A program made the position numbers and the translations under genes. The notes beneath the pieces were generated by a model. That model ran no database searches and was not told where the DNA came from. It saw only the letters and a program-made list of their open reading frames with translations. A stretch of 64,000 bases of DNA from Methylophilaceae bacterium (GTDB taxonomy: Bacteria > Pseudomonadota > Gammaproteobacteria > Burkholderiales > Methylophilaceae), in the NCBI GenBank assembly GCA_018398995.1, contig CP073759.1, positions 1,380,311 through 1,444,310 on the forward strand, written 5' to 3'. Shown piece by piece: positions 20,431 through 41,188 of this stretch (positions within the stretch are counted from its first letter, which is position 1; the number at the start of each line of letters is the position of its first letter).

Positions 20431-23400
20431 ATGCTATCCAGAACATTTTCATTTAAATTTATTAAGATCGGGCATGTAGTAATTTCTGCTGCATTCTTTG
20501 CGCTTGCTGCTTTTTCATCATCATTATCTGCGGCTACGTACGAACTGGGAACAACGATAGCCGGTAGTGATTCAAGTGGCTCAACAATTTATAACTCAAA
20601 TGTTCAATCTTATAATTATGGGTCGTTGTTGGGTGCCCCAAGCACACTGATAATTAATATTTATGGTAACACCACCAATTTCACTGGCTCCATCCGCCAG
20701 TTTAACTACACCCCCAACACCTTCGCTGCGCTTGGGGTCAGTGGCGGGGAATTTACTGGTAGCGATAGTTTTGTATTGGGCTCTGGAGTTGTTGTTGATT
20801 CTGTTACGTTAGGCTCTGCAGCATCAGGGCAATATAGCGCTATATTTGATGGTATTGGTTATGAGTGGACTGGCAGTATTGGTAGTTCATCGACTGTTAC
20901 TTCCTATGCTGTTGAAACATCTGGATCTCTTGCTTTGAATGGGGGTAACTACATTAATGGTGATACGCGTGCTGATAGTGGTGTTAATGTTCTAGGTTCT
21001 GGTAATTTTATGAATGGTGATGTTGATGCCAACATAACTTTTAACAATGCGGGTTCACTCACGGTTGCTGGTGGCGGTGATGTTACGGGAAATATTAACT
21101 TTGGTGGCTATAATGGTCTTTTGACTTTAAGTGATGGAAGTGATGTTGCTGGTAGCATCGATACATCTTCAAGCAGGACTGGGTCAGTAGTTTTTGAAAA
21201 TAATAGTATTGTGACTGGTTCTATTGGCTCTACCTCAGCAATTGAAGAGGTCAGTGCTAATGGTACAGGTGTTGTGCAAATTAACGGCTTAACAAACGCA
21301 ACTGAGGTCAATCTTTATGCTGCAGGTACAGTCGCTTTTGGCGGAGGATTGGATACCCGTTTTTCTGACAGCGATAACGGCCTCGTGAATTTTAGAAACT
21401 ACAACGGTACTGTACAAATTGGTAATGACTCTTCTTTATATGGCGATGTTATCAACAGCGCAAACAATCTTGGTACCTTAACTTTTGTATCTGGCGCGCA
21501 ATCAATGAACGGGCAGATTGGTACCGATTCAAACAAAATTAATACTTTAAACATCGGCGGTGCTAATACAGGCTTAGGTTTTGATGTGTCTACCGATGTG
21601 TATTCAACTACAACCGTCAATGGTGATGTGTTTGCTACTAGCACTGTTTTAAATAACTCATCTGTTGCAAGTTCTGAATTGATTTTAGCAACTGGGAAAA
21701 ATATTACAGGTACTTCTGTCACAACAGCTGATGCTAATAAAGGTATTTTAACTTTGCAAGGTGGCGATCAGACTGTTACAGCTAGTGTTGGCGCTAGTGG
21801 TGCTTGGCTAAATACAGTAAATTCCGGCGCTGATTCTGCAAATTCAACCATTACAGGCGATGTTTACTCAGTTAATGTGACGAATACTGGTTCTGGCACA
21901 TCTAATTTCAACGGTAATGTGACTGCAACTAATATCAACGTTGATGCTGGTACGTCTTATTTCAATCAGTCAGTGAATGCAACTACCACAAGAATTGGAA
22001 CAGGTACAGGACATTTCAATACTGTAGGTGGTACAACCTCGAGCACTAATTTAAATTTTACTGGTAATGGTACGGCCAATCTTAATCAAGGAATGACATT
22101 TACCAACATTGATTATGCTGGAAATGATGCAACAGTCAATGTGGCAGCAGATAAAAACCTTGTAGGAACTGCTATTTCAACAACAACCGATGGGACTGGC
22201 TATCTGAATATGTTGGGTGGCACTCAAACTGTTGATGCAACGGTAGGCGCAGCCTCATTGGGTTTAAATAAAATCACAGCAGGTGCTGATGGGGCGACAA
22301 CTAACTTTACCAATACCGCTGCAGTATATGCCAATACATTGGAAGTGACTGGTAATGGTTTAGTCAATCTTTCTGGAGGTTTGGTTGGGAACTTGGACTA
22401 TGTTAATAACGTATCGTCTGAGAATGGCACAGTTACAATTGCAAGTGGTAAAAATTTAATTGGTAATGTAACTACGGGAGCTTCTGGCTACAGCCAAGGC
22501 GTATTGACAATGATTGGTGGCGAACAGCAAGTCAGTGGCACTATCGGTTCAGATGGCGCGCCTCTGACTACGGTCAATGCAGGTGCCACCGGTTCTACCA
22601 CAACGCTAAATGGTATGACGTATGCCGATACCCTTCAGTTTACCGGTAACGGTACAGTCGTACTAAACGGAACAAACAGTGCAAATCCTGTTGCGGGATT
22701 AAAAGGAACTGTAGATTTTGGAACTAATGCAATCACAGACACAGGAACTTTAGAAGTTGGTGATGGTGTAAATTTAACAACGGGTGCAACTGGAATTAAC
22801 TTCAAAGATGCTAATAATGCAACGCTAACGTTTAATGGTTCAAGCACTGTGACAGGCAATATTGGTAGCGCAGGAAATGATGATAATAACGTTTTCAAAA
22901 CTATTAACGCGGGTGTGACTGGCAAGTTTGTAACCTTCTTGGGTGATGTTTATGTGAGTGCATCAACATTCCACGTAACAGGAGATGGTGTGGTTAACCT
23001 AGGTGGCGATTTGTACGGTCCATTAACGTTTGACAGTCCTTCTGAAGGATCCGTAAATATTGCTAATAATAAATCTATTATTGTTTCAAGTGGCCCGCAA
23101 GTGACCTCTTACGGCACTTCTTCAGCAGGTAAAGGTACAGTCAATTTCGTGGGTGGGACAACGCTTTCTGGGGATGTTGGTACATCAAGTGCATATATTT
23201 TAGCGGCTAACTTTCACAACACAACGAGTGATACTACAAACAGTCCACTTTATGTGGGTTCAGTAACGCAAACACTTAATAAAAATATTTACGCCACCAC
23301 TACAACGATTGGTAATGATCTTGGATATGCAACTGTTGGTGATGTTACGGCGAATGTATTCTTGGGTAACGCATTAACACTGTCTGCAGGAACAACTGTA

Positions 23401-25041
23401 TCAACTTCCACTACCACCTTAAATACAGCTGGTTCTGTTGATGCATTAAGTGGCAGCGTTGTGTTTAATCATAGTAAAAATGCAGATGGAACTTTGACTA
23501 ATGTTGCAACTGTCACACAGTCAACTTTTGGAGAAAGTGTATTTACTACAAATGGCGGTACATTAAATTTTGCGGTGGCTAGTGAAGCTTACAATAATAG
23601 TTTTGGCGGGGGGCAGCTAAGCTCGGACGTCACGCAATCAAGTAAAGTTAGCGGTGGTACAGGGTCGACTTTAGCAATGAACGGTAATGAGAAAGTTAAC
23701 ATTAGCTTACTTGGCAGTTTGCGTAATAATGTTTCATATACATTAATTGATGTTGCAAGTGGAGATACTAATGCAAATCAAGCCGCAACGCTTATTGACA
23801 ACAGCTACGTAATTGACACTATACTGTCTCGTTCAAATGGTGATTTAGTTTTAACAACTAGTCGTGATGAGAATACCTATGTAAATAAATCCAATACACT
23901 TGGTCATTTCTCTAATAACGCTGCAACTACGCTTGCTGGCCTTGGTGCTTTAGGTACTGGTTATAGTAGTGATATGCAAGTCGTATTTAATCAGCTAGAT
24001 CTTGATCAGTGGGGTTATGGTAATAATCAAGCTAATTTAGCAAATGAGGTTAAGAGGTTGGCTCCTATTTCAAATGGATCCTTAACCAGGTCAGCTGTCG
24101 CTGCTAATACATTGGCGCTTGATGTTGCAAATTCGCGTATGGCTGGATTACGTGGAGATATAGTATTGGCTAATAGTTTGACTGGTATATCATCCGGGAA
24201 TGCACAGCCTGATTCAGCTTTTTGGATGAGGGCGCTTGGCTCAACTGCTAAGCAAGATCAACGTAAGAGCTATGATGGTTATAGAACTAATACTTATGGA
24301 GCTGCTTTTGGATTGGATCATAATGTCACAGATGACCTCATTCTTGGGTTTGGTCTTGCTGCTGTGACTGCAAGAGTTGATCAACATGATTTCCGTAGTG
24401 CTGATGATGCTCGAATCAACAACTATTCTGGCATGATTTATGGTAGTTACAATCTTAGTAATGAGGCTTATGTAGAGGGTGTCATAAACTATACTGAAAA
24501 TAAATACAGAGGCGATAGAGCAACTGCAGTTGGAAGAAATGCCCGCTATGACTTTGACGGGAATCAATATGGCGGTAGGTTGGGTGCAGGATATAAGATT
24601 AGTTTAGGTAATAATACGACATTTATTCCAATGGCCTCCATTGAGTACAGTCGATTAGAGCAAGATGCTTATACTGAAAAAGATGCAGGTGCTATTGGAT
24701 TAAATGTAGACAGTCAGTCCTATAGTCGTACTCGATATGGTCTTGGTGGTAGGTTAACAACTAAACTTGGCACTGAAATAATTTATCGCCCAGAAATTGA
24801 CTTAGGTTGGTATAGAGATACGGGAACACTTAATAAAGACGTAGTTGCATCATATATTGGCGGCGGGGAGAAATTTGTGACGCCTGGTACGGATTATATT
24901 GGTCGCAATTTTGTGAATCTAGGCCTTGGTTTAAATGTTGAAGCTAGTCAGTTAACAACAATTCAGGTGCGCTATGATTTGGATGCAAGTAATGGTTTTG
25001 AAAGTCATACTGGCTCAATCGCTGCTAGAATAAACTTTTAA
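20431..25041 (+). CDS. Autotransporter adhesin (type Va), first of tandem pair
   Basis: A 1536-aa outer-membrane autotransporter. Residues 1-36 are a long signal peptide ending SSSLSAATYELG. The passenger (about 37-1260) is rich in Gly, Asn, Thr and Ser with recurring short motifs such as LNFTGNGTANL, TVTIASGKNLIGNV and VTGNIGS, consistent with a right-handed beta-helix. The C-terminal about 270 residues (from FWMRALGSTAKQDQRKSYDGY) are the autotransporter beta-barrel and end in the aromatic SIAARINF needed for BAM-mediated insertion. No protease or lipase motif is visible, so an adhesive or aggregative role is inferred. From 20866 on it appears identical to the next gene. Confidence 0.93.
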   Translation: MLSRTFSFKFIKIGHVVISAAFFALAAFSSSLSAATYELGTTIAGSDSSGSTIYNSNVQSYNYGSLLGAPSTLIINIYGNTTNFTGSIRQFNYTPNTFAALGVSGGEFTGSDSFVLGSGVVVDSVTLGSAASGQYSAIFDGIGYEWTGSIGSSSTVTSYAVETSGSLALNGGNYINGDTRADSGVNVLGSGNFMNGDVDANITFNNAGSLTVAGGGDVTGNINFGGYNGLLTLSDGSDVAGSIDTSSSRTGSVVFENNSIVTGSIGSTSAIEEVSANGTGVVQINGLTNATEVNLYAAGTVAFGGGLDTRFSDSDNGLVNFRNYNGTVQIGNDSSLYGDVINSANNLGTLTFVSGAQSMNGQIGTDSNKINTLNIGGANTGLGFDVSTDVYSTTTVNGDVFATSTVLNNSSVASSELILATGKNITGTSVTTADANKGILTLQGGDQTVTASVGASGAWLNTVNSGADSANSTITGDVYSVNVTNTGSGTSNFNGNVTATNINVDAGTSYFNQSVNATTTRIGTGTGHFNTVGGTTSSTNLNFTGNGTANLNQGMTFTNIDYAGNDATVNVAADKNLVGTAISTTTDGTGYLNMLGGTQTVDATVGAASLGLNKITAGADGATTNFTNTAAVYANTLEVTGNGLVNLSGGLVGNLDYVNNVSSENGTVTIASGKNLIGNVTTGASGYSQGVLTMIGGEQQVSGTIGSDGAPLTTVNAGATGSTTTLNGMTYADTLQFTGNGTVVLNGTNSANPVAGLKGTVDFGTNAITDTGTLEVGDGVNLTTGATGINFKDANNATLTFNGSSTVTGNIGSAGNDDNNVFKTINAGVTGKFVTFLGDVYVSASTFHVTGDGVVNLGGDLYGPLTFDSPSEGSVNIANNKSIIVSSGPQVTSYGTSSAGKGTVNFVGGTTLSGDVGTSSAYILAANFHNTTSDTTNSPLYVGSVTQTLNKNIYATTTTIGNDLGYATVGDVTANVFLGNALTLSAGTTVSTSTTTLNTAGSVDALSGSVVFNHSKNADGTLTNVATVTQSTFGESVFTTNGGTLNFAVASEAYNNSFGGGQLSSDVTQSSKVSGGTGSTLAMNGNEKVNISLLGSLRNNVSYTLIDVASGDTNANQAATLIDNSYVIDTILSRSNGDLVLTTSRDENTYVNKSNTLGHFSNNAATTLAGLGALGTGYSSDMQVVFNQLDLDQWGYGNNQANLANEVKRLAPISNGSLTRSAVAANTLALDVANSRMAGLRGDIVLANSLTGISSGNAQPDSAFWMRALGSTAKQDQRKSYDGYRTNTYGAAFGLDHNVTDDLILGFGLAAVTARVDQHDFRSADDARINNYSGMIYGSYNLSNEAYVEGVINYTENKYRGDRATAVGRNARYDFDGNQYGGRLGAGYKISLGNNTTFIPMASIEYSRLEQDAYTEKDAGAIGLNVDSQSYSRTRYGLGGRLTTKLGTEIIYRPEIDLGWYRDTGTLNKDVVASYIGGGEKFVTPGTDYIGRNFVNLGLGLNVEASQLTTIQVRYDLDASNGFESHTGSIAARINF

Positions 25042-25074: not shown

Positions 25075-28000
25075 ATGATGGAAAAAAAATCTCTTACATT
25101 TAAATTTATTAAGATCGGGCATGTAGTAATTTCTGCTGCATTCTTTGCGTTTGCTGCTTTTTCATCATCATTATCTGCGGCTACGTACGAACTGGGAACA
25201 ACTATAGCCGGTAGTGATTCAATTGGCTCAACAATTTATAACTCAAATGTTCAATCTTATAATTATGGGTCGTTGCTTGGTACGCCGCAAACCACTATTC
25301 AAAATAGTGTATATCAGGATACAACCTACTTAACTGGTTCAATACGTCAATCCAATTTTACCGTCAACAATTTTGCTGCTCTTGGAGTTAGTGGTGGGGA
25401 ATTTACTGGAAGCGATAGTTTTGTATTGGGCTCTGGAGTTGTTGTTAATTCGATAACCACTGGCACACCTGCTTCCGGCCAGTATAGTCCGACGCTCTAT
25501 TATTATTCTGAGTTAATGAATCGTTACGTTAGAGACATGGTGCTGACTGCAGGTCTCGATGTTGATTGGTCAAGTAATGAATATCTTAACGGAACTTCTG
25601 GTGGTCCTGCTTCTTTTACAACTACAACTCCTCTGGGTACTGTTTCTACTTACGGTTCTGGTAGTCCATTTACATGCGATCCATTTGGTGCTTATACGTG
25701 TTATTCTGCAAGAACTTCTTCTCTTTACACAGGTTTAACTCCTAATTCTGGTGAAACTGTTGGTGGGACGGTAGTTTTAGGTGCAGGTTATGAAATTCGT
25801 ACAATAGGTAAGGCTTCTTACACAGTCACCAATACTTTTACAGATTGGACTGGCAGTATTGGTAGTTCATCGACTGTTACTTCCTATGCTGTTGAAACAT
25901 CTGGATCTCTTGCTTTGAATGGGGGTAACTACATTAATGGTGATACGCGTGCTGATAGTGGTGTTAATGTTCTAGGTTCTGGTAATTTTATGAATGGTGA
26001 TGTTGATGCCAACATAACTTTTAACAATGCGGGTTCACTCACGGTTGCTGGTGGCGGTGATGTTACGGGAAATATTAACTTTGGTGGCTATAATGGTCTT
26101 TTGACTTTAAGTGATGGAAGTGATGTTGCTGGTAGCATCGATACATCTTCAAGCAGGACTGGGTCAGTAGTTTTTGAAAATAATAGTATTGTGACTGGTT
26201 CTATTGGCTCTACCTCAGCAATTGAAGAGGTCAGTGCTAATGGTACAGGTGTTGTGCAAATTAACGGCTTAACAAACGCAACTGAGGTCAATCTTTATGC
26301 TGCAGGTACAGTCGCTTTTGGCGGAGGATTGGATACCCGTTTTTCTGACAGCGATAACGGCCTCGTGAATTTTAGAAACTACAACGGTACTGTACAAATT
26401 GGTAATGACTCTTCTTTATATGGCGATGTTATCAACAGCGCAAACAATCTTGGTACCTTAACTTTTGTATCTGGCGCGCAATCAATGAACGGGCAGATTG
26501 GTACCGATTCAAACAAAATTAATACTTTAAACATCGGCGGTGCTAATACAGGCTTAGGTTTTGATGTGTCTACCGATGTGTATTCAACTACAACCGTCAA
26601 TGGTGATGTGTTTGCTACTAGCACTGTTTTAAATAACTCATCTGTTGCAAGTTCTGAATTGATTTTAGCAACTGGGAAAAATATTACAGGTACTTCTGTC
26701 ACAACAGCTGATGCTAATAAAGGTATTTTAACTTTGCAAGGTGGCGATCAGACTGTTACAGCTAGTGTTGGCGCTAGTGGTGCTTGGCTAAATACAGTAA
26801 ATTCCGGCGCTGATTCTGCAAATTCAACCATTACAGGCGATGTTTACTCAGTTAATGTGACGAATACTGGTTCTGGCACATCTAATTTCAACGGTAATGT
26901 GACTGCAACTAATATCAACGTTGATGCTGGTACGTCTTATTTCAATCAGTCAGTGAATGCAACTACCACAAGAATTGGAACAGGTACAGGACATTTCAAT
27001 ACTGTAGGTGGTACAACCTCGAGCACTAATTTAAATTTTACTGGTAATGGTACGGCCAATCTTAATCAAGGAATGACATTTACCAACATTGATTATGCTG
27101 GAAATGATGCAACAGTCAATGTGGCAGCAGATAAAAACCTTGTAGGAACTGCTATTTCAACAACAACCGATGGGACTGGCTATCTGAATATGTTGGGTGG
27201 CACTCAAACTGTTGATGCAACGGTAGGCGCAGCCTCATTGGGTTTAAATAAAATCACAGCAGGTGCTGATGGGGCGACAACTAACTTTACCAATACCGCT
27301 GCAGTATATGCCAATACATTGGAAGTGACTGGTAATGGTTTAGTCAATCTTTCTGGAGGTTTGGTTGGGAACTTGGACTATGTTAATAACGTATCGTCTG
27401 AGAATGGCACAGTTACAATTGCAAGTGGTAAAAATTTAATTGGTAATGTAACTACGGGAGCTTCTGGCTACAGCCAAGGCGTATTGACAATGATTGGTGG
27501 CGAACAGCAAGTCAGTGGCACTATCGGTTCAGATGGCGCGCCTCTGACTACGGTCAATGCAGGTGCCACCGGTTCTACCACAACGCTAAATGGTATGACG
27601 TATGCCGATACCCTTCAGTTTACCGGTAACGGTACAGTCGTACTAAACGGAACAAACAGTGCAAATCCTGTTGCGGGATTAAAAGGAACTGTAGATTTTG
27701 GAACTAATGCAATCACAGACACAGGAACTTTAGAAGTTGGTGATGGTGTAAATTTAACAACGGGTGCAACTGGAATTAACTTCAAAGATGCTAATAATGC
27801 AACGCTAACGTTTAATGGTTCAAGCACTGTGACAGGCAATATTGGTAGCGCAGGAAATGATGATAATAACGTTTTCAAAACTATTAACGCGGGTGTGACT
27901 GGCAAGTTTGTAACCTTCTTGGGTGATGTTTATGTGAGTGCATCAACATTCCACGTAACAGGAGATGGTGTGGTTAACCTAGGTGGCGATTTGTACGGTC

Positions 28001-30021
28001 CATTAACGTTTGACAGTCCTTCTGAAGGATCCGTAAATATTGCTAATAATAAATCTATTATTGTTTCAAGTGGCCCGCAAGTGACCTCTTACGGCACTTC
28101 TTCAGCAGGTAAAGGTACAGTCAATTTCGTGGGTGGGACAACGCTTTCTGGGGATGTTGGTACATCAAGTGCATATATTTTAGCGGCTAACTTTCACAAC
28201 ACAACGAGTGATACTACAAACAGTCCACTTTATGTGGGTTCAGTAACGCAAACACTTAATAAAAATATTTACGCCACCACTACAACGATTGGTAATGATC
28301 TTGGATATGCAACTGTTGGTGATGTTACGGCGAATGTATTCTTGGGTAACGCATTAACACTGTCTGCAGGAACAACTGTATCAACTTCCACTACCACCTT
28401 AAATACAGCTGGTTCTGTTGATGCATTAAGTGGCAGCGTTGTGTTTAATCATAGTAAAAATGCAGATGGAACTTTGACTAATGTTGCAACTGTCACACAG
28501 TCAACTTTTGGAGAAAGTGTATTTACTACAAATGGCGGTACATTAAATTTTGCGGTGGCTAGTGAAGCTTACAATAATAGTTTTGGCGGGGGGCAGCTAA
28601 GCTCGGACGTCACGCAATCAAGTAAAGTTAGCGGTGGTACAGGGTCGACTTTAGCAATGAACGGTAATGAGAAAGTTAACATTAGCTTACTTGGCAGTTT
28701 GCGTAATAATGTTTCATATACATTAATTGATGTTGCAAGTGGAGATACTAATGCAAATCAAGCCGCAACGCTTATTGACAACAGCTACGTAATTGACACT
28801 ATACTGTCTCGTTCAAATGGTGATTTAGTTTTAACAACTAGTCGTGATGAGAATACCTATGTAAATAAATCCAATACACTTGGTCATTTCTCTAATAACG
28901 CTGCAACTACGCTTGCTGGCCTTGGTGCTTTAGGTACTGGTTATAGTAGTGATATGCAAGTCGTATTTAATCAGCTAGATCTTGATCAGTGGGGTTATGG
29001 TAATAATCAAGCTAATTTAGCAAATGAGGTTAAGAGGTTGGCTCCTATTTCAAATGGATCCTTAACCAGGTCAGCTGTCGCTGCTAATACATTGGCGCTT
29101 GATGTTGCAAATTCGCGTATGGCTGGATTACGTGGAGATATAGTATTGGCTAATAGTTTGACTGGTATATCATCCGGGAATGCACAGCCTGATTCAGCTT
29201 TTTGGATGAGGGCGCTTGGCTCAACTGCTAAGCAAGATCAACGTAAGAGCTATGATGGTTATAGAACTAATACTTATGGAGCTGCTTTTGGATTGGATCA
29301 TAATGTCACAGATGACCTCATTCTTGGGTTTGGTCTTGCTGCTGTGACTGCAAGAGTTGATCAACATGATTTCCGTAGTGCTGATGATGCTCGAATCAAC
29401 AACTATTCTGGCATGATTTATGGTAGTTACAATCTTAGTAATGAGGCTTATGTAGAGGGTGTCATAAACTATACTGAAAATAAATACAGAGGCGATAGAG
29501 CAACTGCAGTTGGAAGAAATGCCCGCTATGACTTTGACGGGAATCAATATGGCGGTAGGTTGGGTGCAGGATATAAGATTAGTTTAGGTAATAATACGAC
29601 ATTTATTCCAATGGCCTCCATTGAGTACAGTCGATTAGAGCAAGATGCTTATACTGAAAAAGATGCAGGTGCTATTGGATTAAATGTAGACAGTCAGTCC
29701 TATAGTCGTACTCGATATGGTCTTGGTGGTAGGTTAACAACTAAACTTGGCACTGAAATAATTTATCGCCCAGAAATTGACTTAGGTTGGTATAGAGATA
29801 CGGGAACACTTAATAAAGACGTAGTTGCATCATATATTGGCGGCGGGGAGAAATTTGTGACGCCTGGTACGGATTATATTGGTCGCAATTTTGTGAATCT
29901 AGGCCTTGGTTTAAATGTTGAAGCTAGTCAGTTAACAACAATTCAGGTGCGCTATGATTTGGATGCAAGTAATGGTTTTGAAAGTCATACTGGCTCAATC
30001 GCTGCTAGAATAAACTTTTAA
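25075..30021 (+). CDS. Autotransporter adhesin (type Va), second of tandem pair
   Basis: A 1648-aa paralogue of the preceding gene, starting 33 bases after its stop and probably in the same transcript. Signal peptide and first about 70 residues are almost the same as in the first gene. The N-terminal passenger then carries a unique region of roughly 110 extra residues (about 140-255, containing LMNRYVRDMVLTAGLD and two Cys in FTCDPFGAYTCYSA). From WTGSIGSSSTVTSYAV the two proteins are identical to the end, including the barrel (about 1375-1648). The pair would therefore differ only at the tip of the passenger. The ATG at 25075 and the next codon ATG are both possible starts. Confidence 0.93.
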   Translation: MMEKKSLTFKFIKIGHVVISAAFFAFAAFSSSLSAATYELGTTIAGSDSIGSTIYNSNVQSYNYGSLLGTPQTTIQNSVYQDTTYLTGSIRQSNFTVNNFAALGVSGGEFTGSDSFVLGSGVVVNSITTGTPASGQYSPTLYYYSELMNRYVRDMVLTAGLDVDWSSNEYLNGTSGGPASFTTTTPLGTVSTYGSGSPFTCDPFGAYTCYSARTSSLYTGLTPNSGETVGGTVVLGAGYEIRTIGKASYTVTNTFTDWTGSIGSSSTVTSYAVETSGSLALNGGNYINGDTRADSGVNVLGSGNFMNGDVDANITFNNAGSLTVAGGGDVTGNINFGGYNGLLTLSDGSDVAGSIDTSSSRTGSVVFENNSIVTGSIGSTSAIEEVSANGTGVVQINGLTNATEVNLYAAGTVAFGGGLDTRFSDSDNGLVNFRNYNGTVQIGNDSSLYGDVINSANNLGTLTFVSGAQSMNGQIGTDSNKINTLNIGGANTGLGFDVSTDVYSTTTVNGDVFATSTVLNNSSVASSELILATGKNITGTSVTTADANKGILTLQGGDQTVTASVGASGAWLNTVNSGADSANSTITGDVYSVNVTNTGSGTSNFNGNVTATNINVDAGTSYFNQSVNATTTRIGTGTGHFNTVGGTTSSTNLNFTGNGTANLNQGMTFTNIDYAGNDATVNVAADKNLVGTAISTTTDGTGYLNMLGGTQTVDATVGAASLGLNKITAGADGATTNFTNTAAVYANTLEVTGNGLVNLSGGLVGNLDYVNNVSSENGTVTIASGKNLIGNVTTGASGYSQGVLTMIGGEQQVSGTIGSDGAPLTTVNAGATGSTTTLNGMTYADTLQFTGNGTVVLNGTNSANPVAGLKGTVDFGTNAITDTGTLEVGDGVNLTTGATGINFKDANNATLTFNGSSTVTGNIGSAGNDDNNVFKTINAGVTGKFVTFLGDVYVSASTFHVTGDGVVNLGGDLYGPLTFDSPSEGSVNIANNKSIIVSSGPQVTSYGTSSAGKGTVNFVGGTTLSGDVGTSSAYILAANFHNTTSDTTNSPLYVGSVTQTLNKNIYATTTTIGNDLGYATVGDVTANVFLGNALTLSAGTTVSTSTTTLNTAGSVDALSGSVVFNHSKNADGTLTNVATVTQSTFGESVFTTNGGTLNFAVASEAYNNSFGGGQLSSDVTQSSKVSGGTGSTLAMNGNEKVNISLLGSLRNNVSYTLIDVASGDTNANQAATLIDNSYVIDTILSRSNGDLVLTTSRDENTYVNKSNTLGHFSNNAATTLAGLGALGTGYSSDMQVVFNQLDLDQWGYGNNQANLANEVKRLAPISNGSLTRSAVAANTLALDVANSRMAGLRGDIVLANSLTGISSGNAQPDSAFWMRALGSTAKQDQRKSYDGYRTNTYGAAFGLDHNVTDDLILGFGLAAVTARVDQHDFRSADDARINNYSGMIYGSYNLSNEAYVEGVINYTENKYRGDRATAVGRNARYDFDGNQYGGRLGAGYKISLGNNTTFIPMASIEYSRLEQDAYTEKDAGAIGLNVDSQSYSRTRYGLGGRLTTKLGTEIIYRPEIDLGWYRDTGTLNKDVVASYIGGGEKFVTPGTDYIGRNFVNLGLGLNVEASQLTTIQVRYDLDASNGFESHTGSIAARINF

Positions 30022-30137: not shown

Positions 30138-32003
30138 TTAGGTTTTGCAATATGGTTCTAGTAGCCCCACTATCATTTCCGCAGTATTTTCTCTTGAATG
30201 CTGAGTTAAAGGTATTTTTGTAAATAAGTTATTGTTAACCAAAGTAATCGCATTTATCGAATCGACTGGTAAACCAGTATAGAGGAGCTCATCATTTTGC
30301 ACAACTATTAGCAAATATTCTACATCTTTATTCATTAACAACATTCTGCAACGATCGAATAATCCCACACTAGGAAGTGCGAATATAATTTCATTTGAAA
30401 CGTCAAATGTTTGTAAATGAGTGGTCAAAAAACTCTCCTGACTTTCGGAAGCAAGCTCCTGTTGACGGAGACGTGCTCTATTCAAAGCTTGGTCATTTCC
30501 AATGAAAACCTCAATCGGTATGCGCCCTCCACCGCTAACAAGACTTTGTACCAGTGCCTCAACACCTTTACGTTGATAATCATATCGTTGGTCTAAAAAA
30601 GGTGCAAAGTTTACTTCATTGATTATTGCTCCATTTTCGTACCAAGGCTTACTGATATCTTCTGTAATTAGATCAACTCCTGCAATATTCAAGCTCATAA
30701 GTTGTGCAGCCTGGAAGGCTATTCTAATGTTTTCAGGATGTATTTGCTCAGTTAAAAGATTGGGAGACCCGCCCCATTCAGTGGACTCAATAGGGCGTAA
30801 AAAAACTAATAGTTCAGATTCAGGAATGGAGTGGTAATTTAACCCTTGATCTTTTAATGTTTTCTCTGTTAGTTCATCCAGTAAACAGGGCTTTTTTCGA
30901 AGGTGCTTAGCCTTACGACTTTCCTTTGCTGTTTCAAGCATACACAGTTCTTTTACCGTATGCTTTCCATCACCTTTAACAGATTTTGGAAGCCGAGCAA
31001 CAGTATACAGATGTAAATTACCTGCTAAGAGAATGCGATGACAGACGCCAGAAACCTGACGTTCTACCAAGATATTTTTTGAGAATTTTGAAGCATGATT
31101 GAATGCATGACTAAGAAATTTAGAATTATTAATGCTTGTAGTTACACCTTCACCACGGTCTCTATCAGCAGGTTTTATTACTACTGGATAGCCAATCAGA
31201 TTGGCTGCTTCTAGTGCCTGATTAAATGTGGCGACTGAATAGTGGAATGGAGCTGGTAATCCCGCTAATCTTAAAACCTCTGAACAAGCTACCTTATTTT
31301 GGCTCAACTTTGAACCAATTGCTGAATCAAGCTCCGTCGTACTTCGATGAGACATGCACCTTCTAGAACCCCACCCCAGCTGGTAAACGCCTTTTCCTAT
31401 ATGCATAAAAGGAATATCTAGGTTAAATGCAGTTTTTAAGATTGGTATTGTTGACTCTCCTCCAGGCACTTGTTGTTTGGCTGTAATTATGAATTTTTCA
31501 TGCAATTCTTCAAATTGAGCTGATATATCTGTTTCAGTCAAAGTAGTATTAGAGAAGTATTTAATTAAGCGACATGCAATTTCTAAGGATTTGTAGATAA
31601 TAGAAAGTGAATGATTTTCGACAAAGGGAAAACGACATGCTATTAAATAGGAATGTTTGTTTTTATCGATAGTCTTTATTTCGTTAATAAGACCTGCGGA
31701 AATCGAAGGAATTTTTAATGCCTGCAGCAGACTTCTCGAGAGTAACATTGCTAACCAAAAAAAATCTTGAGCCGTATACTCATCATTACTTAATTTGCGT
31801 ACAATTAATGTATTGATGGGTGAATAGTCCATATTAAAACGCTCTTGAAACTCCTCCCTGAGTTCTGTCAAATTTAAGGAATCCGGTAAAATAAATTCAA
31901 CATTTATTGGTATGGACAGTTGCTTCAATCCAAGGTAATATGATGGAAATATTTGGTATTTATTATTAAAGTTTGTTGCTTTTATGTTTTCTGATTTTTT
32001 CAT
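30138..32003 (-). CDS. Cyanophycin-synthetase-like ATP-grasp protein
   Basis: A 621-aa protein. Residues about 200-490 align with the ATP-grasp part of cyanophycin synthetase: QLGWGSRRCMSHRSTTELDS, NKVACSEVLRLAGLPAP, YPVVIKPADRDRGEGV (272-287) and AGVDLITEDI...GAIINEVNFAPF (441-469, the Mg-binding E-x-N). Where cyanophycin synthetase continues with GRIPIVAVTGTNGKTT, this protein has GGRIPIEVFIGNDQALNRAR (491-510): the Mur-ligase P-loop is lost and only about 130 diverged residues follow. It probably forms an amide or peptide bond through an acyl-phosphate but cannot be a normal cyanophycin polymerase. It is divergent from a 32-codon peptide gene (start codons 18 bases apart) and an HExxH enzyme, suggesting peptide tailoring. 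No ribosome binding site precedes the ATG at 32003, so a start further inside is possible. Confidence 0.82.
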   Translation of the reverse strand: MKKSENIKATNFNNKYQIFPSYYLGLKQLSIPINVEFILPDSLNLTELREEFQERFNMDYSPINTLIVRKLSNDEYTAQDFFWLAMLLSRSLLQALKIPSISAGLINEIKTIDKNKHSYLIACRFPFVENHSLSIIYKSLEIACRLIKYFSNTTLTETDISAQFEELHEKFIITAKQQVPGGESTIPILKTAFNLDIPFMHIGKGVYQLGWGSRRCMSHRSTTELDSAIGSKLSQNKVACSEVLRLAGLPAPFHYSVATFNQALEAANLIGYPVVIKPADRDRGEGVTTSINNSKFLSHAFNHASKFSKNILVERQVSGVCHRILLAGNLHLYTVARLPKSVKGDGKHTVKELCMLETAKESRKAKHLRKKPCLLDELTEKTLKDQGLNYHSIPESELLVFLRPIESTEWGGSPNLLTEQIHPENIRIAFQAAQLMSLNIAGVDLITEDISKPWYENGAIINEVNFAPFLDQRYDYQRKGVEALVQSLVSGGGRIPIEVFIGNDQALNRARLRQQELASESQESFLTTHLQTFDVSNEIIFALPSVGLFDRCRMLLMNKDVEYLLIVVQNDELLYTGLPVDSINAITLVNNNLFTKIPLTQHSRENTAEMIVGLLEPYCKT

Positions 32004-32021
32004 AAATTTTAGGAGTTTTTC

Positions 32022-32120
32022 ATGTCTATAGTAAAAATGTTAGCCCCATATGGTTCACTTAAATACCTTATGTTATCCACAAAAGTTGGCGCTAAACCAA
32101 CAGTAAAAGTTGCTAAGTAA
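32022..32120 (+). CDS. Candidate precursor peptide (32 aa)
   Basis: ATG at 32022 has AGGAG six bases upstream, one of the strongest ribosome binding sites in the accessory region, and the frame runs 32 codons to TAA (32118-32120). The product starts MSIVKMLAPYGSLKYLML and ends in a Lys/Val-rich tail GAKPTVKVAK. It has no Cys and one Pro in each half, is basic and is not an obvious signal peptide. Position between a divergent ATP-grasp enzyme and a downstream alphaKG-HExxH-type peptide hydroxylase makes a ribosomally made, modified peptide the best explanation. This is inference; no family is recognised. Confidence 0.6.
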   Translation: MSIVKMLAPYGSLKYLMLSTKVGAKPTVKVAK

Positions 32121-32172: not shown

Positions 32173-33192
32173 ATGGTTGATTTCAGTGTGCCTTCTGGAA
32201 AAACTGCAAGCTTAATTAACAATGAAGTGAGGACTTCTTTGGCTGATAGTCTAAGTTGGCTAGCAAAGCAAAATAAAATCACTTCACTATTACATCTTCC
32301 TTATGATAGCTGGAATGCCAGGCCCGTGGATTTTGGTTGGTATTACGATTTGCTATTATCTGTTCATAGCAATCAGCCCTTTAATACAGGCACTTATCCA
32401 TATATATTAAAACGTTTAAATGATAATTTTAGTCCTTACGCATCACAGTTTATGTTTTTTGACAAGAAAAACAACAGATTAAAAATTACTACCCTTAGGA
32501 CGCCTTGGTTTAATTCTGAAGAGATCGATTGTATCATTAGATGGCTTGATATGGAGCCAGAAAATCAAATGAACTTAATAGCTCTTGACGATAGAGAGCT
32601 GGCTCAGGCGTCCGAAAATCTCCACAGAGCACTGAATGTTATAGAAACTTTATTACCTGATTTTATGGAGGAAATGATTGCAATTACATCTGAAATAATT
32701 TTCGCAAAGCCATCTGGGAATGAAAAATTAACCTTTGGTGGTGCTTCGTCATTCTTACTATGGGGCGCGCTCGCTTTGAATTCTGAGGCGCATCCATATT
32801 GGTGGCTCTATATTCCGCGGCTTATACACGAGTACTCACATAACTTACTTTTTGGAATTGCAAGAAATGAACCGCTAGTATTAAATGACCCAAGTGAGCG
32901 GTACTATTCACCATTGAGACAAGAATTAAGGCCGATTGATGGTATTTATCACGCTGCGTTCGTTTCGGCACGAGAGGCATTAGCGATGAGAAAAATTATT
33001 AGTAATTCCTGTGAGAAAAAAAAGGAATCAGGTTTTGATTGGTTAGATTTATATTTTAAAGACACTTTAGCAGATTCAACTTTATCCTTCAATGACTCCC
33101 TCACGGTGATAAGAAAACATGGAAGATTGAGTCGACTTGGTAGTGCTATATTAAGGGACATTGAAATTGCAATGAATAAATCAAGTATCTAA
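32173..33192 (+). CDS. HExxH peptide-modification protein (alphaKG-HExxH peptide beta-hydroxylase type)
   Basis: A 339-aa cytoplasmic protein. Residues 218-223 read IHEYSH, an HExxH metal motif, followed by ERYYSPLRQELRPIDGIYHAAF (242-263). The spacing HExxH - (Y)(S/A)P(L/W)R - RP(I/L)xGxxH is the hallmark I recall for the mod_HExxH family, now regarded as alpha-ketoglutarate-dependent peptide hydroxylases of RiPP pathways rather than proteases. No signal peptide or membrane segment is visible. It lies 52 bases after the candidate peptide gene on the same strand. Its ATG has no clear Shine-Dalgarno, so translation may depend on the upstream peptide or a 9-codon frame (32151-32180) that overlaps the start. 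Family assignment is good; substrate is inferred from context. Confidence 0.8.
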   Translation: MVDFSVPSGKTASLINNEVRTSLADSLSWLAKQNKITSLLHLPYDSWNARPVDFGWYYDLLLSVHSNQPFNTGTYPYILKRLNDNFSPYASQFMFFDKKNNRLKITTLRTPWFNSEEIDCIIRWLDMEPENQMNLIALDDRELAQASENLHRALNVIETLLPDFMEEMIAITSEIIFAKPSGNEKLTFGGASSFLLWGALALNSEAHPYWWLYIPRLIHEYSHNLLFGIARNEPLVLNDPSERYYSPLRQELRPIDGIYHAAFVSAREALAMRKIISNSCEKKKESGFDWLDLYFKDTLADSTLSFNDSLTVIRKHGRLSRLGSAILRDIEIAMNKSSI

Positions 33193-33414: not shown

Positions 33415-34242
33415 TTAGGCAACACGTTGTAATTTCTGCATTGGAGTCATGCCACCGATGCCCATGTTTGGCCTTTCATGATTGTATGTCCAAAGCCAAT
33501 GTGTAGCAAACGCCTGCACTTCTTTAATCGTATCAAACAACATATGTGCCAACCAATCATAACGGACTGTACGATTGTAACGTTCTATATAGGCATTTTG
33601 CTGTGGGCTACCTGGCTGAATATAATCAATCCTAATCCCTCGCCTTGCCGCCCATTCTGTTAGCGTTGCACTGATATACTCAGGGCCATTATCACAACGG
33701 ATGATATTTGGTCTGCCACGCCATTCAATAATCTGATCTAGCGAGCGCACCACACGCGCTGAGGGTAATGAAAAATCAACTTCAATGTTAAGCCCCTCGC
33801 GGTTGAAATCATCAATTACGTTAAATAGCCGAATACTACGCCCATCCGATAGCTGATCATGCATAAAATCCATTGACCACACCTCATTGATGCGCCCAGG
33901 TACAGTCAGTGCCAAGGGCATCTCTCTAACTAGCCGCTTACGCGGCTTAATACGCAGATTAAGCTCTAAAAGACGATAGATGCGATATACACGCTTATGA
34001 TTCCAGCCAAAGCCTTTCACATTGCGCAAGTATAGAAAACATAAACCAAAGCCCCAGTTACGCTGGTGCTGCGTCAATCGTAGTAACCAATCTGCAATGT
34101 CATCATTCTCTGTGGATAGCTTAGCGCTATAGCGGTAGCAGCCTTCACTTAGGGCAAAGGTATTGCAGGCCAATCGAATACTCAGGCTTTTATGCTCAAC
34201 CACCCAGCGTGCCATCTCTCGACGCTGAGATGGCTTCACCAC
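33415..34242 (-). CDS. IS3-family transposase OrfB, copy A
   Basis: 275-aa catalytic half of the transposase: HTH_21 region ([19 protein letters not shown]), then the rve integrase core with the first Asp in [11 protein letters not shown], the second in [12 protein letters not shown] and Glu in [15 protein letters not shown]. It overlaps orfA by seven bases in a -1 frame, with an A7-G run at the junction that fits programmed -1 frameshifting to make OrfAB. Confidence 0.9.
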
Positions 34243-34541: not shown

Positions 34542-35177
34542 CTAAATGCTACTTTTATGCGGGGGGATTACCCCATGTCTTGCAGCCCAAGCTTGAATAA
34601 CACCACTGATGTTCTCTGGACTGTTATCACAGCGCAGCGTTCTTGGCTTACCTCGCCACTCAATGATCTGATTTAATGCGCGAATAACTCTTTCTGACGG
34701 TAGGGATAGGTCAATTTCAATACCCAGTGACTCCCGATTGAAATCATCAATCACATTAAACAATCTAAAGTTTCTGCCATCTTGCAACTGATCGTGCATA
34801 AAGTCCATCGACCACACTTGATTTATGCTAATCGGCACCATCAATGCGTCTGGCTTGTCACGCTTGAGCCGCTTTCTTGGCTTAATCCTTAAATTGAGCT
34901 CCAGTGCCTTATAAATACGATAGACACGTTTGTGATTCCAACAATAGCCTTTGACGTTACGTAAATATAAAAAACATAAACCAAAGCCCCAGTTGCGATT
35001 ATTATCCGTGAGCTTTATTAGCCAATCCGAAATCGATTGGTTTTCAGCATCGAGTAATGGCTGATAGCGGTAACAGTTTGTGCTGATACAGAAAATGGTA
35101 CAAGCCAAGCGTATCGATACTGATTTCTCAATCACCGCCTTCATCGCCATCTCACGTCGCAGAGATGGCTTCACCAC
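34542..35177 (-). pseudogene. Truncated IS3-family orfB (element B')
   Basis: The rve core is present to the second Asp region ([23 protein letters not shown]) and then runs into the end of IS copy A, so the catalytic Glu is missing and the last residues are encoded by foreign IS sequence. Not functional. Confidence 0.88.
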
Positions 35178-36460: not shown

Positions 36461-36715
36461 GTGTTGGAGGGGATTATAGCAACATTTACCATTCTAATTA
36501 ATAATCGCACGCAGGCGGTGAGATTGCCTGTGGAATTAAGTTTGCCAGAGGTAGTTAAAAAGGTTCAAGTAAGAGTTCTTGGTCGAGATCGTATTCTTTC
36601 GCCGCTTACAGAAACTTGGACTAGTTTTTTTGCAGCTGATATTGATCTGGTGGCAACGGCAGACTTTATGGTAATACGTGCCACGCAAGAGCAATCGGCG
36701 AGAGAGACACTCTAG
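36461..36715 (+). CDS. vapB: VapB-type antitoxin, start codon apparently lost
   Basis: An AbrB-like antitoxin: the sequence IATFTILINNRTQAVRLPVELSLPEVVKKVQVRVLGRDRILSPL is close to VapB. The family normally starts M-A-T-x-T; here that codon (36476-36478) is ATA, preceded at proper distance by GGAGGGG. A GTG at 36461 keeps the frame open but includes the ribosome binding site in the coding sequence, so efficient expression is doubtful. It is followed directly by the vapC start. Confidence 0.75.
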   Translation: MLEGIIATFTILINNRTQAVRLPVELSLPEVVKKVQVRVLGRDRILSPLTETWTSFFAADIDLVATADFMVIRATQEQSARETL

Positions 36716-37063
36716 GTGATTAAGTATTTGCTTGATACCAATATGGTGATTGACGTCATTAAGCGTCGTCCGGTAGAGGTCATGGAAGTCTTCAACCAGA
36801 GTGCTAGTCGTAAGGCTATCTCGGTAATTACTTTGTCTGAGTTGTTACATGGGACAAAAAAAAGTAGCCAACACGAAAAGAACTTGAGAGTCGTTTTGGG
36901 CATTTGCAGTCCTTTGGATGTGTTGGACTTTACAGCCAAAGCTACCTACCACTTCAGAAAATCGCCTAATGAAACCGATAAACTTTATTTTGAGAGTCTA
37001 TTAAGTTTTAGAAAACTAAGGGCTTGTCAGGGTATGCTTGCTGAAGGATGCAAAAAGAAATGA
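36716..37063 (+). pseudogene. vapC: VapC-type PIN toxin, C-terminus replaced
   Basis: GTG start immediately after the antitoxin stop. Residues 1-79 are a good VapC: YLLDTNMVIDVIKRRP with the first catalytic Asp, ITLSELLHGTKKS with the Glu, VLDFTAKATYHF. From residue 80 the sequence is encoded by the 70-bp repeat and following DNA (RKSPNETDKLYF...), so the second half of the PIN domain, including the later acidic residues, is missing. The RNase should be inactive. Confidence 0.8.
36955..37023. repeat. 70-bp diverged direct repeat, copy 2
   Basis: Partner of 35562-35631. It begins exactly where VapC stops resembling its family. Confidence 0.75.
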
Positions 37064-37827: not shown

Positions 37828-39021
37828 GGTAATCCCCCCGCATAAAAGTAGCATTTAGAAGTAGAATTTTCTTAATTAGATTTAAAGGAATTTTTACATG
37901 AAGCTATCAAGATTTACCGAGAGTCAGATCATCAACATATTGAAACAGGCATAATCCGGTTCGCCAGTACCTGATTTGTGCCGTGAGCATGGAATGAGCT
38001 CCGCCACATTTTATAAATGGCGTGCTAAATACGGTGGCATGGATGCGTCCATGGTGTCTCGCATGAAAGAGCTCGAAGATGAGAATCGACGCCTTAAAAA
38101 ATGTATGCCGAAGTTCAGCTTCAAGCAGACGTACTCAAAGAGGTGATGCAAAAAGTGGTGAAGCCATCTCAGCGTCGAGAGATGGCACGCTGGGTGGTTG
38201 AGCATAAAAGCCTGAGTATTCGATTGGCCTGCAATACCTTTGCCCTAAGTGAAGGCTGCTACCGCTATAGCGCTAAGCTATCCACAGAGAATGATGACAT
38301 TGCAGATTGGTTACTACGATTGACGCAGCACCAGCGTAACTGGGGCTTTGGTTTATGTTTTCTATACTTGCGCAATGTGAAAGGCTTTGGCTGGAATCAT
38401 AAGCGTGTATATCGCATCTATCGTCTTTTAGAGCTTAATCTGCGTATTAAGCCGCGTAAGCGGCTAGTTAGAGAGATGCCCTTGGCACTGACTGTACCTG
38501 GGCGCATCAATGAGGTGTGGTCAATGGATTTTATGCATGATCAGCTATCGGATGGGCGTAGTATTCGGCTATTTAACGTAATTGATGATTTCAACCGCGA
38601 GGGGCTTAACATTGAAGTTGATTTTTCATTACCCTCAGCGCGTGTGGTGCGCTCGCTAGATCAGATTATTGAATGGCGTGGCAGACCAAATATCATCCGT
38701 TGTGATAATGGCCCTGAGTATATCAGTGCAACGCTAACAGAATGGGCGGCAAGGCGAGGGATTAGGATTGATTATATTCAGCCAGGTAGCCCACAGCAAA
38801 ATGCCTATATAGAACGTTACAATCGTACAGTCCGTTATGATTGGTTGGCACATATGTTGTTTGATACGATTAAAGAAGTGCAGGCGTTTGCTACACATTG
38901 GCTTTGGACATACAATCATGAAAGGCCAAACATGGGCATCGGTGGCATGACTCCAATGCAGAAATTACAACGTGTTGCCTAAGCTCTACTTTTAGCGGCT
39001 ACTAAAAATGGGGGGATTACC
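37828..39021 (+). mobile_element. IS3-family element, copy B (1194 bp)
   Basis: Same element as copies A and C in the opposite orientation, with ends GGTAATCCCCCC (37828) and GGGGGGATTACC (39021). Compared with copy A it is one base shorter in the A run inside orfA and two bases shorter in the A run at the orfA/orfB junction. Confidence 0.9.
38101..38982 (+). CDS. IS3-family transposase, fused OrfA-tail/OrfB, copy B
   Basis: A 293-aa frame. Because the junction run has only five A residues here, the last part of orfA ([18 protein letters not shown]) is joined in frame to orfB ([14 protein letters not shown]...) without frameshifting. The rve catalytic core is identical to the other copies. 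The upstream part of orfA carries the common TAA and an extra one-base deletion, so only this partial fusion can be made. Confidence 0.85.
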
Positions 39022-39298: not shown

Positions 39299-39679
39299 GT
39301 GGCTATGGAAAACATCAAAGACAGTTTGTTATTAGGTGATGGAGTTAACATCACTGGCAATATTTCAGTGCAGGGAGTTGTGCATGTGCATGGCAACGTT
39401 AATGGTGAAATTATAGCAAATGAAATTTATATTGGCGAAACAGGCAAGGTGCATGGTGAGATTAAAGTCAACATTGCCGATATAAAGGGAGAGGTGACCA
39501 ATTCCATTGAAGTAAGAGATACATTAATTGTCAGGTCTACTGGTAAAATTTCTGGCACTACATCATATCAGTCTTTAGAGATTGAGCTTGGTGGTATTAT
39601 TGACGGCAATATTGTAAAAAGTAAAGCTCCTTTAACCCCAGCAACTCATCAACTTGATAACATTGAACCTGTTATATAA
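39299..39679 (+). CDS. Bactofilin (first)
   Basis: A 126-aa bactofilin, a nucleotide-independent polymer-forming cytoskeletal protein. The domain shows the repeated beta-helix turns GDGVNITGNISVQGVVHVHGNVNGEI, IYIGETGKVHGEIKV, DIKGEVTNSIEV and LIVRSTGKISGTTSYQ. The ATG at 39305 (MENIKDSLLLGDG) is a more likely start than the GTG two codons earlier. It heads a three-gene operon with an M23 peptidase and a second bactofilin; such pairs control local peptidoglycan hydrolysis and cell shape or stalk formation in other bacteria. Confidence 0.9.
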   Translation: MAMENIKDSLLLGDGVNITGNISVQGVVHVHGNVNGEIIANEIYIGETGKVHGEIKVNIADIKGEVTNSIEVRDTLIVRSTGKISGTTSYQSLEIELGGIIDGNIVKSKAPLTPATHQLDNIEPVI

Positions 39680-39681
39680 TT

Positions 39682-40743
39682 GTGCGGTCTCTTGCTTCTA
39701 TTCTTCTTCCTGTAATGTTGCAGCCCTTATCTTTTATAAAGCGAGTATGGAATTATGAATTCCAAGATTTCAGATTAATTCTTGAGCAATCTGATGAGTT
39801 GCATTATTTTCTTGTGTGGGCCAAAGCTCAACTCTTTATTACGCGAGCGATACTAATAACTGTACTAACTTTAATGTGTATATTATTAGGGCTTAGTTTT
39901 CATAGTTGCGTTACTGTTTGGCGCTACAATGCACTTGAGTTATCAAAGGCTGAGACGGAAAAAAAGCGTCAACAAGCATTATCTGCAATAGCTTCTTTGT
40001 CAGATTCTGGTGCCTTACTAGACGAAGGTATTACTGAGACTGAGTTACTGGGCGTAACGAATCGCTATCGTGAACGTTTACAAAAACTAGAGCTATTAGT
40101 TAACTACTCTACACAAGAACTAAAGCTTGCTTCGCGTGCGTTGGAAGAAGGCCTCAAAGTTTCTGGCATTACACCAAGCATGATCAAGAAGCTAAAAAAA
40201 GACAACGCTAATACCAACACAAAGCTAGCTGTCAACATAGAATCTATCAAATCGGCAGGTGTTAATACAGAAGTATTAGTCAATTATAAAAAAAACTTAG
40301 ATGAATTGCAGAAATTGAAGAATGTATTATTAATTTTTCCTAGTCGTAAGCCAGCCAATAATGCAATTTCTACTTCCCAATACGGTGTTAGAGTTCATCC
40401 TATTACGAATAGAAAAATAAAACATGAAGGCATTGATTTTATGCCTACTATAGATTTTAACGCTAAAGCAGTCATCAACGGCGTGGTTGAGAAGGTGCAA
40501 CATTCATCTATTGGGTATGGCAATATGGTGGTTATTTTACATCCAAATAATGTCAGAACACTCTATGCTCACCTCGATAGTATTTTTGTTGAGCATGGAC
40601 AAAAAGTGCAAGCGGGTCAATCAATAGGCAAGATAGGCAATACCGGATTTTCAACTGGCAGGCACCTGCACTACGAAGTATCCGTTGATGGCGTAAAAGT
40701 AAACCCTTCAATTATTACAGCGATGGCAAAAAATGTTCAATAA
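39682..40743 (+). CDS. M23-family murein endopeptidase, membrane-anchored
   Basis: A 353-aa protein: one transmembrane helix near residues 53-75 (AILITVLTLMCILLGLSFHSC), a periplasmic coiled coil (about 90-225) and a C-terminal LytM/M23 domain with all zinc and catalytic elements (H..D in KHEGIDF near 247, LYAHL, and HLHYE near 327). It starts at a GTG two bases after the first bactofilin stop and overlaps the second bactofilin gene by 11 bases. The topology and context match the bactofilin-recruited LmdC/Csd1-type hydrolases. Confidence 0.92.
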   Translation: MRSLASILLPVMLQPLSFIKRVWNYEFQDFRLILEQSDELHYFLVWAKAQLFITRAILITVLTLMCILLGLSFHSCVTVWRYNALELSKAETEKKRQQALSAIASLSDSGALLDEGITETELLGVTNRYRERLQKLELLVNYSTQELKLASRALEEGLKVSGITPSMIKKLKKDNANTNTKLAVNIESIKSAGVNTEVLVNYKKNLDELQKLKNVLLIFPSRKPANNAISTSQYGVRVHPITNRKIKHEGIDFMPTIDFNAKAVINGVVEKVQHSSIGYGNMVVILHPNNVRTLYAHLDSIFVEHGQKVQAGQSIGKIGNTGFSTGRHLHYEVSVDGVKVNPSIITAMAKNVQ

Positions 40744-41188
40744 ACGCAAAACAGCTAAAACCGACTCCTCAAACAATTTTGATGAGCACTTGAATGAATT
40801 AACAGCGGAAAGTAACGATGTATCGACTAGCATTTTGCCAAGTAAAATTATGAACATTGCACAAAAACCAACCATCATCAGTGAAGGTGCATTATTTGAA
40901 GGACAACTAGTATTTGATGGCACGCTGCATATCGATGGTAAATTCAAGGGCACCATTAAAGTGGATAAAATAACGGTTGGCAAAAACGGCGTACTGGATG
41001 GCACGTTTCAAGCCAATACTGTGGTTGTGTTTGGTGAAATTAAAGGGGAGGTCTTATGCGAAGATTTGACCCTAAATTCTGGTTCCAATGTTGATGGCGT
41101 CATTCAATATGCAAGTATCAAAATACAGCAGGGCTCCTCTATAGGTGGTGAGGTTATTCATAAAAAAAATAGCACGAAATTCCCCTAA
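40733..41188 (+). CDS. Bactofilin (second)
   Basis: A 151-aa bactofilin with a disordered charged N-terminus (about 1-45) and a beta-helix domain (ISEGALFEGQLVFDGTLHIDGKFKGTIKV, ITVGKNGVLDGTFQANTVVVFGEIKGEVLCEDLTL, SNVDGVIQY). Translation is coupled to the peptidase gene through an 11-base overlap. Two different bactofilins in one operon suggest a mixed scaffold. Confidence 0.92.
   Translation: MFNKRKTAKTDSSNNFDEHLNELTAESNDVSTSILPSKIMNIAQKPTIISEGALFEGQLVFDGTLHIDGKFKGTIKVDKITVGKNGVLDGTFQANTVVVFGEIKGEVLCEDLTLNSGSNVDGVIQYASIKIQQGSSIGGEVIHKKNSTKFP

Follow-up and report, generated by a model that had tools for sequence, protein, structure and literature searches.

Organisation of the locus

Within the 64,000-nucleotide stretch of DNA analysed (the window), a short open reading frame (ORF) lies between a divergent ATP-grasp ligase gene and a downstream gene for an alphaKG-HExxH-type hydroxylase, the relevant features being as follows:

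30138..32003, reverse strand: ATP-grasp ligase of cyanophycin-synthetase descent, 621 aa, comprising N and ATP-grasp domains and a decayed Mur-ligase part
32004..32021, no strand: 18-base interval separating the two divergent start codons, read from the sequence
32011..32015, forward strand: Shine-Dalgarno sequence AGGAG of the short gene
32022..32120, forward strand: putative precursor peptide gene, 32 aa, MSIVKMLAPYGSLKYLMLSTKVGAKPTVKVAK, ATG to TAA, with homologues at related loci
32040..32090, forward strand: conserved 17-residue unit LAPYGSLKYLMLSTKVG, residues 7-23, from homologue comparison
32076..32117, forward strand: proposed core STKVGAKPTVKVAK, residues 19-32, the boundary inferred by comparison with the cores of related loci
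32173..33192, forward strand: alphaKG-HExxH-type peptide beta-hydroxylase, 339 aa, assigned by TIGR04267 and by comparison of an AlphaFold model with ChlH (8s5f)
32827..32841, forward strand: HEYSH metal motif, H219-H223
32950..32952, forward strand: H260, the invariant histidine of GIYHAxFV and likely third metal ligand, a role inferred by alignment

The ATG of the ATP-grasp gene occupies positions 32003-32001 on the reverse strand, and the hydroxylase gene, on the same strand as the short gene, starts 52 bases downstream of it. The AGGAG sequence sits 6 bases before the short-gene ATG, and the pairing of the 20 bases upstream of each start codon with the 3' end of 16S rRNA gave an energy of -6.8 kcal/mol for the short ORF as against -0.8 and -0.9 kcal/mol for the ATP-grasp and HExxH genes respectively. 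A preliminary description of this DNA, which had proposed a 32-codon gene at 32022-32120 with a better ribosome-binding site than either large neighbour and a divergent ATG only 18 bases away, was thus accurate on each count, the ORF being both present and conserved in relatives (vide infra). Its suggestion that the ATP-grasp start might instead lie further inside the gene fared less well: homologues start at similar distances from a conserved G-x-[RK]-Q motif, and no alternative ATG, GTG or TTG intervenes in the window between this motif and position 32003, which makes the 18-base gap probably genuine. It follows from this geometry that the promoters would lie inside each other's coding region; a promoter and terminator scan returned promoter-like matches no more often than chance would (7, with 6.8 expected).

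A gene of 32 residues is one that annotation would skip, and since ORFs of 30-40 aa occur by the dozen in the same region, length is no evidence in its favour; the case for the short gene therefore hangs on conservation and context.

The two flanking enzymes

The hydroxylase scored 69.5 bits against TIGR04267 (curated cut-off 40), and its AlphaFold model (mean pLDDT 89) matched the ChlB HExxH oxygenase domain (8s5f) with a TM value of ~0.7, the protein exhibiting both the HExxH motif and the ChlH fold that characterise the alphaKG-HExxH beta-hydroxylases. Residues H219, E220, H223 and H260 were invariant across 31 relatives, the GIYHAxFV motif that contains the last of these being aligned with GLLHAIFV of ChlH, from which H260 is the likely third metal ligand. 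Enzymes of this family are established as hydroxylating ribosomal peptides at the beta-carbons of His, Asp, Phe, Gln or Pro residues (PMC13060819; PMC12636437). The gene is the sole one of TIGR04267 type in its genome, and because a search of 100 genomes (its own plus relatives) returned only one other match, weak and from the same order, the locus was probably acquired; no close relative of it was found within the genus or family genomes searched.

The N and ATP-grasp domains of the divergent ligase matched cyanophycin synthetase, the alignment with CphA1 covering about 300 residues and continuing into the Mur-ligase domain; the best matches of the ligase were of the CphA and GshAB types, and it did not register as a graspetide synthetase. 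The TIGR02068 score was 212.6 bits, as against an equivalog cut-off of 850. Within the Mur-ligase remnant the ATP site GTNGKT has gone, GRIPIEVFIGND replacing GRIPI..VTGTNGKT, and the catalytic His267 of CphA1 corresponds to Arg283, a position occupied by Arg in at least 90% of the aligned rows. Changing His267 to Ala abolishes G-domain activity in CphA1 (PMC9262961). Identity with CphA1 was rejected on the loss of the second ATP site, the loss of the catalytic histidine and the low score, and because of the first two the ligase is, as judged from its sequence, a relative of cyanophycin synthetase as opposed to a cyanophycin synthetase proper.

Distribution of related loci and their ligase partners

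A hydroxylase-profile scan of 84,980 species' genomes yielded 80 loci which, together with the window and four earlier loci, gave a total of 85, among which L013 and L034 represent the same place. Loci with the repeated arrangement were distributed across the Pseudomonadota, Verrucomicrobiota and Planctomycetota. An ATP-grasp partner lay beside the hydroxylase in 70 of the 85 loci, 22 of these partners being of the CphA type and 48 belonging to a distinct 320-aa type, while the other 15 loci had no ligase in the available stretch, some through contig ends; one of the 15 (L031) shares an assembly with L027, which does have a ligase. The 320-aa protein gave weak sequence matches only, none above the Pfam or NCBIfam cut-offs, and its structural model (pLDDT 93) was an ATP-grasp fold nearest to ArgX, RimK and D-Ala ligases. 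In most HExxH/K-x-G clusters it is this family (L012, L013 and 46 other loci) that stands in place of the CphA-like ligase. No conserved exporter or protease gene was found in the neighbourhood, and defence-system models returned no match.

A plasmid collection contained distant hydroxylases only, for which tblastn and inspection of the annotated neighbours detected no ATP-grasp partner. The corresponding loci, L018-L021, are distant HExxH genes from plasmids of Pantoea, Xenorhabdus and Photobacterium. Immediately upstream of the HExxH gene in the three examined (L018, L020 and L021) there is a short Lys-containing ORF, and an MFS transporter is annotated in the vicinity at L018 and L019.

A conserved family of short peptides

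A short ORF adjoins the hydroxylase gene at nearly every locus. Most of the encoded peptides have the leader LD.SKLLGF[KR][LI] followed by a Gly/Lys-rich core in which [GA]-x-K-[VI]-G recurs, this sister class having up to nine K-x-G copies, whereas the nearest hydroxylase relatives of the window encode LAPYG[SA][LM]KF..L[AS]TKVG instead. The unit of the latter subclass, LAPYG-x6-[LI]-x-[AST]-K-[VI]-G, is duplicated within single precursors, a repeated form to be expected of multi-core precursors: Nitrotoga (L022) has three peptides, one with two units, all encoded downstream of the hydroxylase gene; Sulfitobacter (L023) has a single peptide with two; L024, L025 and L026 each have one; and L027, L028, L029, L031 and L033 have looser forms in up to three copies, those of L027 being three in tandem. 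In the hydroxylase tree the window falls within an 11-row clade (support 100/100), all members of which carry a LAPYG-type peptide or a looser form; since this clade comprises exactly the LAPYG-type loci, the type of peptide tracks the enzyme clade. Pfam contains no match to the window peptide, and NCBIfam no model for the precursor family.

The specificity of the association was assessed by counting motif-bearing short ORFs. Of these, 78 lay beside the HExxH gene, in 68 of the 85 loci; among the 6290 short ORFs at other positions in these loci only two bore the motif, and the one in L079 is a true precursor. The K-x-G count is partly circular, K-x-[GKA] having been part of the sister-class search pattern. 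Against a background of 0.9 Mb of loci plus the window, hits to the pattern L.PYG...[AST]K[VI] were, bar one in an unrelated frame, confined to short ORFs of HExxH loci and all 16 residues long.

The comparison of synonymous with non-synonymous change proposed in the preliminary description, which had accepted that a frame either unconserved or interrupted by stops in homologous loci could not be a gene, came out in favour of the short ORF. Pairwise differences among ten LAPYG units, compared across genera, between distant relatives, and within precursors, no close strain with the locus having been found, were 0.36/0.17/0.62 for codon positions 1/2/3, and 0.09/0/0.60 in the conserved columns: third positions vary freely, and second positions of conserved columns are fixed. 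These sequence comparisons establish the short ORF as genuine coding sequence, conserved and co-segregating with the two enzymes. A short gene conserved at the amino-acid level beside tailoring enzymes, with a conserved recognition segment (LAPYG or LD.SKLLGF) joined to a variable or repeated core, here of one to nine K-x-G copies, has the recognised characteristics of a RiPP precursor.

Two variants are recorded here. The core of the Planctomicrobium precursor (L055, upstream of 4974) consists almost wholly of KLGAKIGGKVGAKIGGKVGRKVG repeats, and a precursor in L084 (upstream of 4689) repeats VSSTGVSVG[VI]KPA, with Ser/Val replacing the Lys of K-x-G, which provides a natural test for the identity of the modified residue.

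Recognition segment and core of the window peptide

The window peptide consists largely of LAPYGSLKYLMLSTKVG followed by AKPTVKVAK, with K21-V22-G23 as the K-x-G signature, and has neither Asp nor Glu at any position; the proposed core contains four lysines. The earlier division into a leader and a basic core remains the best reading insofar as it distinguishes a recognition part from a modified part. Its proposed cut after MSIVKMLAPYGSLKYLML, leaving the tail GAKPTVKVAK, was close, and is here moved upstream so that the core also takes in S19-T20-K21-V22-G23, because relatives repeat LAPYG...TKVG and the sister-subclass core is [GA]-x-K-[VI]-G-x-K-x-G. LAPYG is best read as either the recognition half of the peptide or a part of a repeated recognition-plus-core unit; since the whole LAPYG...TKVG unit is duplicated in L023, the two parts may move jointly as a single repeated module.

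Proposed function and alternative explanations

The foregoing comparisons make it highly probable that the product of the short gene is the substrate, or precursor, peptide in a RiPP-type system of three genes, and there is an equally strong expectation that the hydroxylase and the ligase would both act on that peptide. The LAPYG segment would be the part recognised by the enzymes, and the Lys/Gly stretch T-K-V-G-x-K-P after it the modified part, within which the alphaKG-HExxH enzyme would hydroxylate a beta-carbon of the K-x-G stretch, and the divergent ligase would activate a carboxylate with ATP and couple it to the epsilon-amine of a core lysine. Given that the window peptide and 25 of 83 cores contain no Asp or Glu and that the C-terminal residue is not conserved, lysine amines would be the shared reactive group, and acylation of the K-x-G lysine therefore the most likely reaction, albeit one advanced only tentatively. 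Ligases of the RimK, ArgX and LysX types attach amino acids either to proteins or to carrier proteins. Since both RimK-type and CphA-type enzymes use amino acids, the group added would probably be an amino acid. The broader proposal, that ATP-grasp ligases of two lineages aminoacylate K-x-G lysines while the alphaKG-HExxH enzyme hydroxylates the repeats, the whole constituting an undescribed RiPP class, is a shade more speculative; if true, it would yield branched, basic, isopeptide-bearing peptides.

The foremost alternative, considered unlikely yet deserving of serious attention, is CphA1-like phosphorylation of the C-terminal carboxylate followed by addition of an amino acid or lactam formation onto a lysine. 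The G domain of CphA1, with which the window enzyme aligns, does add Asp at the backbone C-terminus (PMC9262961), but the catalytic His267 is Arg283 in the window ligase, the C-terminal residues of the peptides are diverse (A 18, G 12, R 12, V 10 and K 7 of 83), and tandem internal cores would stay untouched unless cut first. The lack of C-terminal conservation and the frequency of internal core copies likewise disfavour C-terminal extension.

A much less probable proposition is that the HExxH protein cleaves the peptide as a zinc protease instead of hydroxylating it. The motif is zincin-like, and PflC, a member of the alphaKG-HExxH family, exhibits hydrolysis in the absence of its leader (PMC12636437); the above-threshold TIGR04267 score, the fold shared with the alphaKG oxygenase ChlH and an invariant SPxR...RP..G.xHAxFV region in common with ChlH all count against it.

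The juxtaposition of an ATP-grasp ligase and a short precursor also recalls the graspetides, in which such a ligase ties Asp/Glu side chains to Lys, Ser or Thr to make rings, and oxygenase-containing graspetide clusters are known (PMC13097080). A side-chain ring is excluded for the window peptide, which has neither acidic residue, as is also true of the L013 peptide and two L022 peptides, and the ligase is of CphA lineage. As a general account this is accorded very little weight, although the exclusion does not extend to all family members, 58 of the 83 cores containing Asp or Glu.

Scarcely more credible is a regulatory role for the short ORF as an upstream leader peptide controlling hydroxylase translation, and not a substrate: its brevity, strong ribosome site and same-strand position before the hydroxylase gene would suit such a role, but not the conservation of the amino-acid sequence while third positions are free, the duplication of units inside one ORF, or the downstream placement of the L022 peptides. 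That the frame is a chance ORF, as the abundance of similarly sized ORFs in the region might suggest, is refuted by conservation across related loci and has a negligible claim.

Relationship to known systems

The preferred reading, of a precursor peptide tailored by both enzymes, can be compared with several established systems. The alphaKG-HExxH RiPP hydroxylases (ChlH/ChlB, BipH, PflC/PosC and PesO) belong to the same enzyme family and fold as the window enzyme and similarly act on a short precursor encoded beside the enzyme, but their described partners are rSAM, MNIO, arginase or Asn-synthetase-like proteins, and both an ATP-grasp partner and K-x-G cores are absent from the descriptions compared. 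CphA1 and CphA2 have N and ATP-grasp (G) domain sequence in common with the window ligase, which retains a Mur-ligase remnant but, unlike them, has Arg283 in place of His267, lacks the GTNGKT P-loop and adjoins genes for a precursor and a hydroxylase. The 320-aa partner that holds the place of the ligase in most sister loci has a fold in common with RimK, ArgX and LysX, from which, at about 15% identity, it is a separate family. Graspetides of the microviridin type likewise combine an ATP-grasp ligase with a precursor peptide, sometimes with repeated cores, but require an acidic residue for the ring that the window peptide does not possess.

No description of a trio of HExxH enzyme, ATP-grasp ligase and RiPP precursor was identified in the open-access literature searched, and the enzyme pair and precursor family are apparently undescribed for RiPP-type systems. 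On the preferred reading, an overlooked 32-codon ORF would encode what a widespread enzyme pair modifies, and a precursor family is defined by its LAPYG or LD.SKLLGF leaders and K-x-G cores, while an enzyme lineage associated with a storage polymer has apparently been re-used for peptide tailoring. Because two types of ligase replace one another on a shared core motif, the chemistry is directly testable, and the three-gene system is small enough for a single co-expression in E. coli.

Other features of the window

Two neighbouring autotransporter-like genes (20431-25041 and 25075-30021; 1536 and 1648 aa) share a very long, apparently identical stretch reaching the C-terminus, the pair having the appearance of a recent tandem duplication in which the N-terminal portion has diverged. 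Downstream, three copies of the same IS3-type transposase gene lie within 9 kb of the cluster, in both orientations (33415-34242, reverse; 38101-38982, forward; 41343-42170, reverse), plus a diverged copy at 34542-35177. As read from the sequence, a VapB/VapC-like pair at 36461-37063, consisting of a short antitoxin-like ORF and a PIN-like ORF, sits between APS-kinase-like and sulfotransferase-like genes, and an M23-like peptidase gene lies between two bactofilin-like genes at 39299-41188.
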